Shown here piece after piece: positions 21,040 to 25,332 of a stretch of 33,202 nt of DNA (position 1 is its first letter; every line of letters starts with the position of its first letter). The stretch spans positions 1-33,202 of the forward strand of contig JAFVRN010000001.1 of the NCBI GenBank assembly GCA_017504265.1, given 5' to 3'. The DNA comes from Alistipes sp. GTDB taxonomy: Bacteria > Bacteroidota > Bacteroidia > Bacteroidales > Rikenellaceae. Both the position numbers and the translations under genes were made by a program. The notes under the pieces are model-generated. The model was given only the letters and a program-made list of their open reading frames with translations. It had not been told where the DNA came from and did no database searches.

Positions 21040-21494
21040 TATAGCTTAAAGGTAAAGGGTAATAATTTCTCGGCACTATCTACCACCGTAGCCGTACCTG
21101 CACCACTCATAATCACACGTATCGGGCTCTGCTGTCTGCGCTCCACATCCACTATAACCTGGCGGCACTGACCACAAGGATAACACTCCCTGATAGATGG
21201 TTGCGAGGCAATGGCGAGTGCCTCGATGGGGTCGTCGGCGTAGTTGGCCTCGACATAGAAGAGCAGCGAACGCTCGGCACACAGACCTGCGGGATATACC
21301 TCGCTCTCGAAGTTCGAGGCGCGCAACACAAGACCGCTGCGCAGACGTACGGCAGCTCCTACACGGAAGTGCGAGTAGGGGGCATGGGCCGTAGCCGTGG
21401 CACTACGGGCTTCGGCCACAAGCCGAGCATCGAGAGTGTCGAGGTGTTCGAGCGACTCGAAGTGCTCGTATGAGATATCCAATACTTGTTTCAT
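21039..21494 (-). CDS. cdd: Cytidine deaminase
   Basis: 151 residues. Zinc ligands and the proton shuttle are visible in GLCAERSLL (Cys72, Glu74) and PCGQCRQVI (Cys107, Cys110), and HAPYSHFRVGAA is the substrate-side motif. It deaminates cytidine and deoxycytidine to uridine forms in pyrimidine salvage. It is the first gene of a minus-strand operon with an RluA-type enzyme, dtd and a DUF4924 gene. It is transcribed divergently from the metY leader. Confidence 0.96.
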   Translation of the reverse strand: MKQVLDISYEHFESLEHLDTLDARLVAEARSATATAHAPYSHFRVGAAVRLRSGLVLRASNFESEVYPAGLCAERSLLFYVEANYADDPIEALAIASQPSIRECYPCGQCRQVIVDVERRQQSPIRVIMSGAGTATVVDSAEKLLPFTFKL

Positions 21495-21519
21495 ATCACG
21501 TCACTGTATGTTTGACGTA

Positions 21520-21527
21520 CAAAGATA
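21520..21527 (-). promoter_or_regulatory. Candidate -7 promoter motif of the cdd operon
   Basis: Minus-strand TATCTTTG, 26 nt before the cdd ATG. Its -33 region overlaps the -33/-7 space of the divergent metY promoter. Confidence 0.6.
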
Positions 21528-21535
21528 CTATTTTT

Positions 21536-21566
21536 TTTGCAAATTAATAAATAATTAGTAACTTTG
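21536..21566 (+). promoter_or_regulatory. Promoter of the metY-metX-hom leader
   Basis: TTTG (21536-21539), a 19-nt spacer, TAACTTTG (21559-21566): the ideal Bacteroidota arrangement. Transcription should begin near 21573, about 14 nt before the leader ATG and 240 nt before metY. Confidence 0.8.
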
Positions 21567-21586
21567 CGCTACCTAGAACACTACTT

Positions 21587-21685
21587 ATGAGCACGCAGAT
21601 ACATATCACAACGGTCAATGTCATCGCCTCGACCCATGGGGCAGGCATCATCATCGGAGGTATGCACATGCGAATGTGCCGTTAG
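21587..21685 (+). CDS. Candidate Met-rich leader peptide upstream of metY
   Basis: A 32-codon ORF, MSTQIHITTVNVIASTHGAG then IIIGGMHMRMCR, begins about 14 nt after the predicted transcription start and ends 131 nt before metY. Three of the last seven codons are Met (ATG CAC ATG CGA ATG), as expected for a ribosome-stalling control region of methionine genes. The same bases form a GCACAT-GCGA-ATGTGC hairpin, which competes with a TGTGCC-GTTA-GGCGCA hairpin covering the stop. It resembles amino-acid attenuation leaders in layout. I know of no homologue, and Ile and Thr runs are also present, so which amino acid is sensed is uncertain. Confidence 0.5.
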   Translation: MSTQIHITTVNVIASTHGAGIIIGGMHMRMCR

Positions 21686-21765
21686 GCGCATCTTACTTCA
21701 CTTGGCGGTTACGTACCGCTATATCCCGACAGATTTTCATATTCGGCGACACCTCCCAGGGGGTG
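21656..21765 (+). promoter_or_regulatory. Structured metY leader with mutually exclusive hairpins
   Basis: GGAGGT (21656-21661) is complementary to ACCTCC (21751-21756), which otherwise sits in a local CACCTC-CCAG-GGGGTG hairpin (21750-21765). Between them are GCACAT/ATGTGC, TGTGCC/GGCGCA and GCGGT-TACGT-ACCGC hairpins. There is no poly-U, so control would be by folding near the start or by another terminator type. I see none of the conserved SAM-I motifs. Confidence 0.4.
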
Positions 21766-21816
21766 CAGGCCACACTATTTACTTATATTGGAACATAACG
21801 CAATAACTATACAACT

Positions 21817-23097
21817 ATGGCAGATAGAAAACTCCATTTCGAAACACTTCAAATACACGGCGGCTATCACGTCGATGCGTCGCAGTCACGAGGCATAGCC
21901 ATACACCCCACGGCAGCCTATCACTTTCCCACGTGCGAGTATGCCGCAAACCTCTTCACGCTAAGCGAGGCGGGATACATCTACACACGTCTGCACAACC
22001 CTACCACGGCAGCCTACGAGGAGCGCATAGCGGCTCTCTATGGCGGTGTGGGGGCACTGGCAACAGCATCGGGAATGTCGGCAATACTGCTCACCGTAAC
22101 AGCCCTCGCCAATGCGGGACAGAACATCGTGGCCTCGCCATATCTCTACGGCGGCACACACAACCAATTTGTCATATCGCTGCGCAACGTCGGCATAGAG
22201 TGTCGTTTGGCGGCCAGCGACTCGGCCGAGGATATGAAGGCTCTTATCGACGAGAATACACGCGCTCTGTTTGTCGAGTCGATGGGTAACCCCACCTGTC
22301 GTGTTGCCGACATCGAGGCTCTGGCAGAGGTGGCACACTCACACAACATACCCCTCATCGTAGATAACACGTTTGGTGCAGGCGGCTATCTGTGTAATCC
22401 CTTTGAGTGGGGTGCCGACATCATCACCGACTCGGCCACAAAGTGGATTAACGGCCACGGCACGGCTATGGGAGGTGTTATCGTCGATGGCGGTAAGTTC
22501 GACTGGGGATGTGGTAAGTTCCCGGCCATAGATGGCCCTTCGGAGGGTTACCACGGACTAAACCTATACGAGGCCTTTGGCAAGCAGGCATTCATCGTCA
22601 AGTGCCGTGTGGACGGTATGCGCGACTTCGGATGCTGCCCCTCGCCCTTCGATGCCTATCTTATGATGCTCGGCTTGGAGACCCTGTCGCTACGTGTAAA
22701 GCACGAAGTGGAGTCGACATATAAGCTTGCCGAGTATTGCCGCAACCACCCCAAGGTGGAGCGTGTCAGCTTCGTAGGTTTCGACGACCATCCCAGCCAT
22801 AAGCTCGCACAGAAGTATTTCCGCCACGGAGCATCGGCCGTGCTTACCATCGAGCTGAAAGGTACGCTCGAAAGCACCATAAAGTTTGTCGAGAGCCTGC
22901 GTCTGTCGGGTAATATGACGATGATTGGCGACTCCATATCGGTGGTAACACATCCGGCATCGACCACACACAAGCAGCTGTCGGACGAGGCGAAGCGCGC
23001 TGCGGGCATAACACCTACGCTGCTACGCATATCGCTCGGCTTGGAGAATGTCGAGGATATCATCGCCGACTACGAACAGGCATTGGAGGCGATATAG
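21817..23097 (+). CDS. metY: O-acetylhomoserine sulfhydrylase (PLP)
   Basis: 426 residues, full length for the Cys/Met metabolism PLP family. The PLP lysine is Lys209 in DSATKWINGHGTAMGG, and YTRLHNPTTAAYEERIA and TASGMSAILL are further family motifs. The length and the HFETLQIHGGYHVD start fit the O-acetylhomoserine (thiol) lyase that makes homocysteine from O-acetylhomoserine and sulfide, rather than cystathionine enzymes (usually about 380-400). The next gene, metX, makes its substrate and starts 2 nt after the stop, which supports this. It is preceded by the leader described at 21587. Confidence 0.95.
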   Translation: MADRKLHFETLQIHGGYHVDASQSRGIAIHPTAAYHFPTCEYAANLFTLSEAGYIYTRLHNPTTAAYEERIAALYGGVGALATASGMSAILLTVTALANAGQNIVASPYLYGGTHNQFVISLRNVGIECRLAASDSAEDMKALIDENTRALFVESMGNPTCRVADIEALAEVAHSHNIPLIVDNTFGAGGYLCNPFEWGADIITDSATKWINGHGTAMGGVIVDGGKFDWGCGKFPAIDGPSEGYHGLNLYEAFGKQAFIVKCRVDGMRDFGCCPSPFDAYLMMLGLETLSLRVKHEVESTYKLAEYCRNHPKVERVSFVGFDDHPSHKLAQKYFRHGASAVLTIELKGTLESTIKFVESLRLSGNMTMIGDSISVVTHPASTTHKQLSDEAKRAAGITPTLLRISLGLENVEDIIADYEQALEAI

Positions 23098-23098
23098 T

Positions 23099-24118
23099 AT
23101 GCGAGGGCTATACAAACATAACGCACCGCTGCTGCTCGAATCGGGTGAGGTGCTACCCTCGGTGGAGATTGTATACGACACCTTTGGGGAGCTAAACCAG
23201 AGGCGCGATAATGTCATATGGGTGTGTCACGCTCTTACGGCCAACTCCGATGTTGCCGACTGGTGGCCCCATACCGTCGAGAGCGGCAAGTTCTTAGACC
23301 CCGACCGCTACTTCATCGTCTGCGCCAACTTCCTCGGCTCGCACTATGGCACCACATCGCCCCTGAGCATAAATCCCGCGACGGGCAAAAAGTGGTACTA
23401 CGACTTCCCGCGTATCACGGTACGCGATATGGTTGCGGCACACAAGCTGCTGGCAGCACACCTCGGCATAGAGCGCGTCAAGCTACTTATAGGCAGCTCC
23501 ATAGGCGGTTTTCAGTGCATGGAGTGGGCCATCAGCGAGCCTCGCTTCGCCGAAAACCTCGCACTCATAGCCACCACCACCTGCTCCGAGCCGTGGGCAG
23601 CAGCCTTCAACGAGTCGCAGCGTATGGCCATACGCCTCGACCCCACGTGGGGCAAGCTCGACGACGAGGCGGGAGCAGAGGGTATGGCCGTAGCACGCAG
23701 CATAGCCCTTATGAGCTATCGCGGCGGCGCAGCCTACAACGCCACACAGCAGGAGAGCGACCCTCTGAACGAGGTGTCCTTCGAGCGTAGGGCACACAGC
23801 TATCAGCAATACCAAGGCGAGAAGCTCCGACGCAGGTTTAATGCCATGTCGTACTATCGTCTTTCGGAGGCTGTCGATTCGCACAACATAGCACGCGGCA
23901 GAGGCTCGATAGCCGAGGCACTGCGACGCATCGAGGCACGCACGCTTGTGGTGGCCATCTCCTCGGATATACTCTTTCCACCCGAGGCACATACGCCCCT
24001 ACGCGAGAATATAGCCGATGTGGAGTATCACCTCATAGAGTCGGAGTTCGGTCACGACGGCTTCCTGGTCGAGCACAACAAACTAAATAGGATTATTTGT
24101 GACTTCCTAAAACACTAA
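23099..24118 (+). CDS. metX: Homoserine O-acetyltransferase
   Basis: 339 residues starting MRGLYKHNAPLLLESGEVLP. An upstream ATG at 23048 would lie inside metY and adds a non-family extension, so the start 1 nt after the metY stop was chosen. It is an alpha/beta hydrolase: nucleophile Ser134 in IGSSIGGFQ, Asp in SSDILFPPE and His in EFGHDGFLVE complete the triad. It transfers an acetyl group from acetyl-CoA to homoserine in methionine synthesis. The family motif is usually GxSxGGMQ; here Met is Phe. The last 23 bases are tandemly duplicated downstream. Confidence 0.94.
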   Translation: MRGLYKHNAPLLLESGEVLPSVEIVYDTFGELNQRRDNVIWVCHALTANSDVADWWPHTVESGKFLDPDRYFIVCANFLGSHYGTTSPLSINPATGKKWYYDFPRITVRDMVAAHKLLAAHLGIERVKLLIGSSIGGFQCMEWAISEPRFAENLALIATTTCSEPWAAAFNESQRMAIRLDPTWGKLDDEAGAEGMAVARSIALMSYRGGAAYNATQQESDPLNEVSFERRAHSYQQYQGEKLRRRFNAMSYYRLSEAVDSHNIARGRGSIAEALRRIEARTLVVAISSDILFPPEAHTPLRENIADVEYHLIESEFGHDGFLVEHNKLNRIICDFLKH

Positions 24119-24152
24119 CATATATTTGTGACTTCCTAAAACACTAACATAT
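24095..24152 (+). repeat. 29-bp perfect tandem duplication at the metX end
   Basis: Two identical 29-bp units, ATTTGTGACTTCCTAAAACA then CTAACATAT, at 24095-24123 and 24124-24152. The first holds the last codons and stop of metX; the second ends within the hom start codon. Confidence 0.95.
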
Positions 24153-25332
24153 GAAGAATATAAACATAGGTCTCTTCGGCTTCGGCAACGTCGGACACGG
24201 CCTTTACGACGTATTGCGTCGCATAAACTCTACGAATGTACATATCAAGCGCATATGTGTACGCCATATTGATAAGGATCGAGGCGTGAATGCCGCGTTT
24301 ACCGACAACGCCGACGACATCTTCGAGGATAAGGATATAAACCTTATAGTGGAGGTCATCGACGATGCCGATGCGGCCTACACCATCGTCAAGCGTGCGC
24401 TGATGAACCACCTCCCCGTGGTATCGGGCAACAAGAAGATGCTCGGACACCATATCTTGGAACTTATCGAGCTACAGCAGCAGTACAACACACCTCTGCT
24501 CTACGACGCTTCGGCCTGTGGCAGCATACCCGTCATACGCAACCTCGAAGAGTACTACGACAACGACCTGCTATGCTCGGTTAAGGGTATCCTCAACGGC
24601 TCGTCGAACTTCATACTATCGAAGATATTTAACGAGCATATGAGCTACGAAGATGCACTGCATCTCGCACAGAAGCTCGGCTTTGCCGAGAGCGACCCCA
24701 CGCTCGATATCGACGGTTGGGATTCGCTCTACAAGCTTATCATCATCACCATCCACGCCTTTGGCGTATATGTCGCACCGGAGCATATATTCACCTACGG
24801 CATATCTACGATGAACGACTCGGATATACGCTTTGCACGCGAGAAAGACCGCCGCATAAAGCTCGTGGCCCACGTCGAAAAGGTGGACAACAGACTTATA
24901 ATGTGCGTCATCCCGCAGCTCATATCGCGCAACAAGTATATATACAGTGTCGAGGATGAGTTCAACGGCGTGGTAATCAAGGGTCTGTTCTACGACAAGC
25001 AGTTTATGTTCGGACGTGGCGCAGGAGGACACCCCACAGGCTCGGCCGTGCTCAGCGACATCACCGCCTGCGGCTATAACTACCGCTACGAGTATAAGAA
25101 GCGTAACGACTCCGTGCTACCAATTTATACCACCGACCATACCTTCCGCGTATACTTCCGCTATAAGCATGCCGAGCAGTGCAACCTGCTACATTTTAGC
25201 AAGATACGCGAGCAGTACACATCCGAAGATTACAACTACATTGTGGGCGACGTGACTATCTCCAACCTGAAAGCACATCAGGAGGAGCTGCGTGTGAGCG
25301 ATTGCTTCGTCGCCGCATATCCGTTTGATTAG
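24151..25332 (+). CDS. hom: Homoserine dehydrogenase (no clear ACT domain)
   Basis: 393 residues. GLFGFGNVGHGLYDVL is the NAD(P)-binding start, SGNKKML the cofactor-loop segment, GILNGSSNFILSKI the substrate motif, GFAESDPTLDIDGWDSLYK holds Glu180 and the catalytic Lys195, and FGRGAGGHPTGSAV ends the catalytic part. It reduces aspartate semialdehyde to homoserine. The roughly 75 residues after that lack an obvious ACT domain, which usually binds threonine for feedback control. Standing downstream of metY and metX, it feeds homoserine into methionine. The start is 32 nt after metX, across the tandem duplication. Confidence 0.94.
   Translation: MKNINIGLFGFGNVGHGLYDVLRRINSTNVHIKRICVRHIDKDRGVNAAFTDNADDIFEDKDINLIVEVIDDADAAYTIVKRALMNHLPVVSGNKKMLGHHILELIELQQQYNTPLLYDASACGSIPVIRNLEEYYDNDLLCSVKGILNGSSNFILSKIFNEHMSYEDALHLAQKLGFAESDPTLDIDGWDSLYKLIIITIHAFGVYVAPEHIFTYGISTMNDSDIRFAREKDRRIKLVAHVEKVDNRLIMCVIPQLISRNKYIYSVEDEFNGVVIKGLFYDKQFMFGRGAGGHPTGSAVLSDITACGYNYRYEYKKRNDSVLPIYTTDHTFRVYFRYKHAEQCNLLHFSKIREQYTSEDYNYIVGDVTISNLKAHQEELRVSDCFVAAYPFD

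Follow-up and report, generated by a model that had tools for sequence, protein, structure and literature searches.

A conserved methionine-codon leader upstream of metY in Alistipes and its proposed role in ribosome-mediated attenuation

In the classical attenuators of the trp, his, leu, thr, ilv and phe operons, a short promoter-proximal open reading frame (ORF) carries codons for the cognate amino acid and is followed by RNA hairpins. The leader upstream of metY in Alistipes that is the subject of this work is alike in all three respects; here, however, the amino acid is methionine, and the leader lacks an intrinsic terminator and a conserved antiterminator, whereas a second type of leader in other Alistipes genomes (Type II) has the complete terminator/antiterminator layout. 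A further relative is tnaC of Escherichia coli, in which free tryptophan induces arrest of the nascent TnaC peptide and the controlled operon is catabolic. In both cases a ribosome at the end of the leader could shield a Rho entry site beside the stop codon, but the sensor that we propose is codon starvation and the operon is biosynthetic. For His, Leu, Thr and Trp, attenuator motifs are represented in Rfam, and those for Ile/Val and Phe have been characterised elsewhere, according to the relevant passages of PMC3766115. The cysteine leaders of Actinobacteria are similar in having runs of codons for the amino acid of the pathway near the stop codon and no terminator hairpin; in the sections of PMC1262725 that deal with them, the authors propose Rho-dependent termination as one possibility, name the tna operon as a precedent, and report having found no RNA structure conserved upstream of actinobacterial methionine operons. 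As described in those sections, the actinobacterial leaders are specific for cysteine and have no conserved hairpins, whereas of the two hairpins of our leader one (H2) covaries and the other (H1) is conserved in sequence. Mycobacterial polycysteine ORFs have reportedly been addressed in later work as well. In other Bacteroidales, the SAM-I riboswitch (S-box, RF00162) precedes the same kind of genes; it senses by its aptamer, while our leader would sense by its codons. A Flavobacterium transcriptome gave clues of leader-peptide attenuation upstream of amino acid operons, the word methionine being absent from its main text (PMC9723704), and an excerpt of PMC7366714 notes short ORFs that resemble leader peptides in 5' UTRs of B. 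thetaiotaomicron. Among the matches listed from PMC full text, outside of which most subscription papers and bioRxiv lie, there was neither a description of a methionine leader-peptide attenuator nor one of a SAM riboswitch combined with a Met leader.

The locus is part of a stretch of 33,202 nucleotides from Alistipes sp. (contig JAFVRN010000001.1), the whole of which we refer to as the window. A short ORF is located directly 3' of the promoter of a biosynthetic operon (see Table 1), and we infer its translation from the selection on its codons. We take the promoter to be of the Bacteroidetes type; the metY start is 131 nt downstream of the leader stop, and the name metX was given from context. 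A first-pass annotation of the sequence had pointed to the promoter, to the 32-codon ORF with Met at three of its last seven codons, and to GGAGGT (21656-21661) and the complementary ACCTCC (21751-21756), all of which are present where it had seen them. It had also placed ACCTCC in a local hairpin, and the minimum-energy fold of the region indeed contains the CACCTCC/GGGGGTG hairpin together with the hairpin at the stop codon, without the GGAGGT:ACCTCC pair. Since this fold is unremarkable on its own (z -1.75; 14 of 200 shuffles fold as well), one sequence proves little. No SAM riboswitch motif had been recognised, in agreement with our searches: the whole window had no Rfam match at the gathering score, including SAM-I (RF00162) and the T-box, a permissive search of the leader returned only chance-level matches to other families, and no S-box was found in the genome of the window.

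Table 1. Features of the metY leader and operon in the window
Feature	Positions	Strand	Details
Promoter, presumably Bacteroidetes-type	21536..21566	+	TTTG 21536-21539, 19-nt spacer, TAACTTTG 21559-21566; from sequence
Leader ORF, 32 codons, MSTQIHITTVNVIASTHGAGIIIGGMHMRMCR-stop	21587..21685	+	ATG at 21587; family conserved
Putative sensor end AUG-CGA-AUG-UGC-CGN-UAG (M-R-M-C-R-stop)	21668..21685	+	conserved across the 81-row alignment
H1 hairpin GTGCC-GTTA-GGCGC	21676..21689	+	spans last codons and stop; 100% paired in 80 distinct rows
H1-H2 linker, G-poor, U/C-rich	21690..21703	+	length 12-15 nt in 80 of 81 rows
H2 hairpin, TACGT loop	21704..21720	+	all six pairs vary on both arms
C-rich, G-poor stretch after H2 (part), putative Rho entry site	21721..21744	+	from composition only
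metY-proximal hairpin, CACCTCC/GGGGGTG	21745..21771	+	region folds better than shuffles in 36 loci
metY, O-acetylhomoserine sulfhydrylase family	21817..23097	+	Pfam PF01053 (Cys_Met_Meta_PP), E 2.2e-118
metX-like acyltransferase	23048..24118	+	Pfam PF00561 (Abhydrolase_1), E 1.9e-16; overlaps the metY end at the listed ORF start
hom, homoserine dehydrogenase	24151..25332	+	Pfam PF00742 (Homoserine_dh), E 8.1e-49

Comparison of related loci established a conserved Met-codon leader ORF that bears the marks of translation. Of 101 genomes searched with the metY protein, 94 had a match at E<=0.001, and the upstream regions were compared. In 24 of these loci the ORF has the common end ATGCGAATGTGCC..., which is nearly always ATGCGAATGTGCCGNTAGGC and corresponds to MRMCR and the stop codon; in the same loci, H1 is formed by GTGCC and GGCAC paired over the stop codon (GGCGC in the window). 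A covariance model of the ORF end, H1 and H2 built from these 24 loci (R1) matched 69 of 180 Alistipes genomes at E<=0.1, and at E<1e-4 it matched 68 of the 180 at 69 places, the window's own included. At 68 of the 69 places metY is directly downstream (58 are L071-L128 and 10 come from the first sets of metY upstream regions); the remaining place, L129, is at a contig end. For five R1 matches with E values of 0.03-0.06 (L130-L134), there was no metY in the stretch covered. The Met-rich leader ORF before metY-metX-hom that the first-pass annotation had proposed is supported, and it is conserved. An exact scan for the motif in one genome per species resulted in 83 places, L215-L217 among them, 77 of which have metY on the same strand within 500 nt; of the other six, two are cut by the end of the stretch, one (Prevotella corporis) has no metY in the 548 nt available, and three are a different string in unrelated sequence. 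The promoter box, whose consensus TAnnTTTG is also named in the passages used from PMC9723704, recurs 5-75 nt (median 20) upstream of an in-frame ATG in 79 of 80 loci, and a -33-like element is present in 42 of 80 under a loose rule, both being raw counts with no chance background.

The leader is carried by Alistipes, other Rikenellaceae, Tidjanibacter, Ca. Avirikenella, three Prevotella, one member of the Paludibacteraceae and one bin labelled Muribaculaceae. By record title, the records with the motif are mostly metagenome-assembled genomes of Alistipes or Rikenellaceae from animal guts; a search of viral contigs for the exact motif gave 0 matches. The metY of the Muribaculaceae-labelled bin is 87% identical to that of the window, and the leader in this bin reflects either transfer or misbinning. 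At the level of the order (247 genomes), R1 found, beyond the window, two weak matches (E 0.003 and 0.01), both without GCGAATGTGCC. In Prevotella L148, L168 and L187, the leader may be reduced to MMRMCR and the stop codon. At L148 and L168, about 290 nt separate metY from the motif, and the gene shares 68-69% identity with that of the window, which suggests that the leader was transferred together with its gene. Alistipes also has metY loci with neither type of leader, such as L006, L017 and L022. At L006, the metY is 90% identical to that of the window, and TTTG...TAACTTTG is located 73 nt before the gene, with no leader; the leader is thus a separable module, which has apparently been lost at L006.

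The codon usage of the leaders shows which amino acid is concerned. In 77 distinct leaders among the 80, with the start codon and MRMCR excluded and 1648 codons counted, ATG upstream of MRMCR is in frame in 202 cases, against 10 and 0 for the two remaining frames; for the last nine codons before MRMCR the values are 159, 1 and 0. The corresponding counts for whole leaders are 166/118/77 for Ile, 104/116/62 for Thr and 41/118/67 for Cys codons, and stop triplets are distributed 0/100/72. Of the ten codon classes tabulated, Met shows the strongest frame bias by a wide margin, and from the comparison with Ile and Thr we can conclude that Met is the codon kept by selection. Such a bias is as would be expected of a translated ORF selected for Met codons. 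The sensed amino acid had been left open between Met, Ile and Thr in the first-pass annotation; Met is now favoured, with Ile frequent as well, the commonest residues in the variable part being Met (12.3%), Ser (11.6%) and Ile (10.1%). In the 81-row alignment (A3), the first ATG of AUG-CGA-AUG is present in 80 rows and CGA in all 81, and the third base of the last Arg codon is T in 47, A in 18, C in 11 and G in 5 rows. L127 (MSQRMCR-stop) is the sole row of the 81 in which the first Met of MRMCR is replaced, and both H1 and H2 are intact there; L016 ends in MRMCL, with Leu for the last Arg.

Structure was studied in an alignment of 81 loci with 80 distinct rows (L205 having been added to 80), which was fitted to the model and leans towards it. 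H1 is paired in 100% of the cells of the 80 distinct rows, and since four of its five pairs never vary, covariation says nothing for or against this hairpin. H2 is paired in 92.8% of the cells, and all six pairs show changes on both sides (137 such cells). In the 81-row alignment the joint covariation score of H1 and H2 is 0.437 as compared to 0.152 for shuffles and at most 0.111 for a slid partner, values which, like all z and shuffle values given here, treat related sequences as independent; one of five measures, the count of pairs changed on both sides, is not above shuffles (181 of 500 reach it). The original, unfitted alignment of 24 rows scored 0.254; shuffles gave 0.143, with none of 500 attaining the observed score, and slid partners 0.135 at most. 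Here two of five pair measures are not above shuffles (89 and 193 of 500 reach them). Comparison thus bears out the pairing of H2; in 80 of 81 rows, 12-15 nt separate it from the end of H1. The H2 loop starts with TACG in 48, CACG in 11 and TATG in 7 of the 81 rows; we take such loops to be of the very stable UNCG/YNMG kind. In a few rows H2 is absent or different: its columns are gapped in L144, and L186 and L213 have a different loop. In L213 (Paludibacteraceae), the hairpin at the place of H2, AGAACC-AACC-GGTTCT, looks like a terminator because TATATTCTTTTT follows. A clade with 75% identity (L019, L021, L025, L028, L104, L117 and others) has a third hairpin after H2, GTGTC-nnn-GACAC or similar, the GTGTC strand of which could also pair with GGCAC of H1; this hairpin was not seen in the clade of the window. 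The comparison of related metY upstream regions that had been suggested beforehand has in this way supported the leader ORF, its Met codons and, by covariation, H2, but it did not support two other pairings. One is the hairpin thought to lie over the Met codons (GCACAT-GCGA-ATGTGC), which lacks conservation: of its six pairs, two are unpaired in 39 and 64 of 80 rows, with no changes on both sides. The other is the GGAGGT:ACCTCC switch; over 36 loci, i. e. the window and its close relatives, pairing of the leader ORF with the 5' arm of the metY-proximal hairpin does not exceed shuffles (mean z 0.03).

A second type of leader was found in sister Alistipes genomes. Seven Alistipes loci without MRMCR have a run of Met codons, such as MMMVMCMCNRFRRV-stop, followed before metY by a terminator, such as AATCCGGCTT..GTCGGATTTTTTT. 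The model built from these seven loci (R2) matched 28 of 180 genomes at E<1e-6, corresponding to 27 leaders (L218-L244), 26 of them with metY and one (L243) with a weak metY match. In L243, the Type II leader and its terminator precede an apparently decayed metY. The R2 match L245 (E 5e-7) was discarded as the terminator of another gene, and of the matches at E<=0.1 (74 of 180 genomes), those weaker than the top 28 look like ordinary terminators. According to our reading of both match lists, leaders of the R1 and R2 types never occur in one genome. The Type II ORFs have ATG in the three frames 150, 9 and 2 times (25 ORFs, one of which is a non-leader from an R2 locus without metY). Their last codons, GCCGGGTGTAG, are complementary to the terminator's 5' arm, ATCCGGC, and the duplex signal at this place has a combined z of -9.5 (22 loci), with nothing comparable in the window type. 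In an alignment of 25 of the 27 loci (L219 and L221 were left out as repeats of L218), the antiterminator strand lies 16 nt from the last ATG in 24 loci; in the remaining one, L234, an additional Met forms the last codon and the 16 nt are counted from the preceding ATG. Given the size of the ribosome footprint, this distance is what a stalled ribosome would demand. Judged by comparison of their sequences, these 27 sister genomes have a textbook Met attenuator, composed of a Met run, an antiterminator and an intrinsic terminator, before the same gene. In the window type, the second AUG of AUG-CGA-AUG is exactly 16 nt from the end of H1.

A link to the SAM-I riboswitch emerged from other Bacteroidales. 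S-boxes are present in 43 of 149 sampled genomes of this order, and 34 of 48 S-box loci (L248-L277 and L281-L298) have a short ORF that starts 4-15 nt after the aptamer (4-21 nt were searched). In the other 14, the gene itself is at this place (4 loci), there is a T run (6) or neither (4); in nine of the 34, the ORF is accompanied by a T run within 130 nt. These ORFs were picked by position only, and the leader class took precedence over a T run. In their last 36 nt, ATG is found 62/2/3 times by frame, as compared to 18/27/17 for Ile and 12/16/9 for Thr. By reading, 30 of the 34 ORFs have Met among the last 12 codons; Met is missing there in L250, L267 and L292, and in L269 the frame counted differs from the frame that ends with Met. 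The ends include EISMCMR, GSSMFMR, FFMDMRGMRM, MPLMPMCMRR, SPMRMR and HMFMRCMRSMLS, each followed by the stop codon, and the genes behind them are metY-, metH- and aspartokinase-like, as read from their first residues rather than by family search. Outside Bacteroidales, among the best 30 S-box loci of a phylum-wide search, 20 of which come from one family, only seven had an ORF at this place, and the ATG counts of these seven (2/3/1) revealed no Met bias. In Ca. Avirikenella (Rikenellaceae, L144), an S-box at 1636-1731 is followed by a 37-codon leader ending in SMRMCR-stop, placed at 1739, and then by metY. These observations lead us to lean towards the idea of a composite, two-input Bacteroidales leader in which the SAM level and the charging of Met-tRNA are read in series on one RNA; the window type would be the same leader minus the aptamer, with a conserved H1/H2 output that does without an intrinsic terminator, and Ca. 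Avirikenella would be the intermediate. The window type may be a tandem that lost its aptamer, and in the simplest history Alistipes would have kept the leader and lost the aptamer.

How the state of the leader might be passed on to metY is suggested by what follows its stop codon. The terminator scan found 0 terminator-like sites at 21480-21900 of the window. In 36 loci of the closest clade, the region proximal to metY has a more stable fold than its shuffles (mean z -1.68); the best hairpin there is not conserved in sequence, ends 30-46 nt before the metY ATG in 28 of the 36 loci, and is directly followed by a T run in two of them. That of the window is not followed by a U tract. Pairing of the leader ORF with this hairpin is not beyond shuffles in the 36 loci (mean z 0.03 for the 5' arm and -0.24 for the 3' arm). 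A looser duplex between the ORF and downstream sequence gave a mean z of -0.57 (combined -3.4) in the 36 closest-clade loci, and 0.05 in 32 loci of the next clade, and was not borne out by any specific pairing. In a sliding duplex scan of 76 of the 80 window-type and 22 Type II loci, from which near-identical and motif-less ones had been removed, no conserved antiterminator was detected in the window type: the combined signals at -42 (-5.1) and +3 (-4.6) are weak against the -9.5 of the Type II control, and a general antiterminator was dismissed. Ribosome-mediated attenuation, the layout proposed in the first-pass annotation, was supported as to the leader ORF and the cognate Met codons, but not as to an intrinsic terminator and a conserved antiterminator; with no intrinsic terminator detected in the window leader, the classical layout is incomplete there. 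The window-type stop codon is followed by a G-poor, U-rich linker (G 3-5% and U 48-53% in bins 9 to 15 of 80 loci), H2, and then a C-rich, G-poor stretch. C minus G, taken over 78 nt from the stop onwards, is +0.116 (80 loci) as compared to +0.001 in 111 other 5' regions, which come from 80 of the 83 pattern-match loci and are in many cases related; this bias is modest (mean percentile 0.83 against a fixed-window and 0.76 against a best-of-eight background) and, as a property of composition, no proof of Rho. We propose that the output of the window type is premature transcription termination and, more tentatively, that Rho dependence is its most probable form. A Rho-dependent output is preferred because no intrinsic terminator was found, and the closest parallel in print, the cysteine leaders in the sections of PMC1262725 considered here, leads us to favour Rho too, if with some reserve.

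Taken together, the region probably is a leader that senses Met codons and controls metY-metX-hom by ribosome-mediated attenuation, and it is very likely that this leader regulates metY by codon-dependent stalling. In the mechanism that we propose, a ribosome would start about 15 nt after the predicted transcription start, synthesise the Met-rich peptide and meet AUG-CGA-AUG before the stop codon. With charged Met-tRNA at hand, it would pass these codons, terminate at UAG and leave; H1 and H2 could then form, the G-poor RNA behind the stop codon would be exposed, and most transcripts would end before metY. If Met-tRNA is scarce, the ribosome would stall on the AUG codons. With the second AUG in the A site, about 16 nt would lie under it, up to precisely where H1 ends, so that H1 would be blocked and the start of the exposed segment shielded, and transcription would read on into metY. 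Translation in vivo, stalling, a functional H1 hairpin and the output step are what we infer here.

The main alternative for the output step, unlikely as it appears, is that H1 and the U-rich linker form a weak intrinsic terminator at the leader stop that is blocked directly by a ribosome stalled on AUG-CGA-AUG. H1 has a GC-rich stem of 5 bp and a short loop and is followed by 9 nt that on average contain 4.5 U and 0.5 G (80 loci), and the 16 nt from the last AUG to its end would suit such a block; however, the terminator scan finds none in the window, and a ribosome close behind the polymerase would cover H1 in the replete state too. A different switch was suggested by the complementarity of GGAGGT and ACCTCC in the window: an antiterminator formed by them would compete with the metY-proximal hairpin as terminator. 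The good folding of the metY-proximal region in the 36 loci would fit, but the pairing is not conserved in them, the hairpin of the window is not followed by a U tract, and GGAGGT would be hidden under the very ribosome that stalls at the Met codons, which makes this switch highly improbable.

As for the sensing step, we regard it as rather improbable that MRMCR acts by nascent-peptide arrest, i. e. by a Met- or SAM-dependent jam of the ribosome at the stop codon, with H1 and H2 reading this state. MRMCR is almost invariant, its last Arg is kept with four different third bases (and one Leu, in L016), and three Prevotella loci seem to retain only MMRMCR and the stop codon; yet Met persists in the Type II and SAM-I-linked leaders although the residues after it vary (CNRFRRV, RSDLRRV, MFMR, MGME, MCMCSTG), the invariance of the codons CGA and TGC suggests a constraint at the RNA level, and arrest at high Met would need an unknown step to switch the operon off. 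The near invariance of H1, the strong covariation of H2 and the conservation of its loop would also be compatible with a structured RNA, that is an undescribed riboswitch or a protein-binding element composed of H1 and H2, with the short ORF as a mere bystander. This is very improbable in view of the in-frame bias of ATG and the 100 and 72 stops in the other frames, which indicate a translated ORF, and of the Rfam searches, which gave no match at gathering and chance-level matches in the permissive mode. Short leader ORFs have finally been proposed to raise downstream translation (PMC4833913, in the part used here), but a leader that acts by translational enhancement or re-initiation and senses no amino acid is scarcely credible here: it leaves both the selection for Met codons and the tie to methionine genes unexplained, and metY of the window starts 131 nt behind the leader stop. 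Thus, codon-dependent stalling in a Met-sensing leader is the reading that we prefer.

Such a leader would reveal how methionine is sensed by gut Bacteroidales; the codon of this amino acid is also the one with which every protein begins. Riboswitch with leader, leader alone and leader with terminator form a natural series among the loci, along which one can trace how one sensor took the place of another. The window type, moreover, poses the question of what a stalled ribosome does when a terminator is absent.
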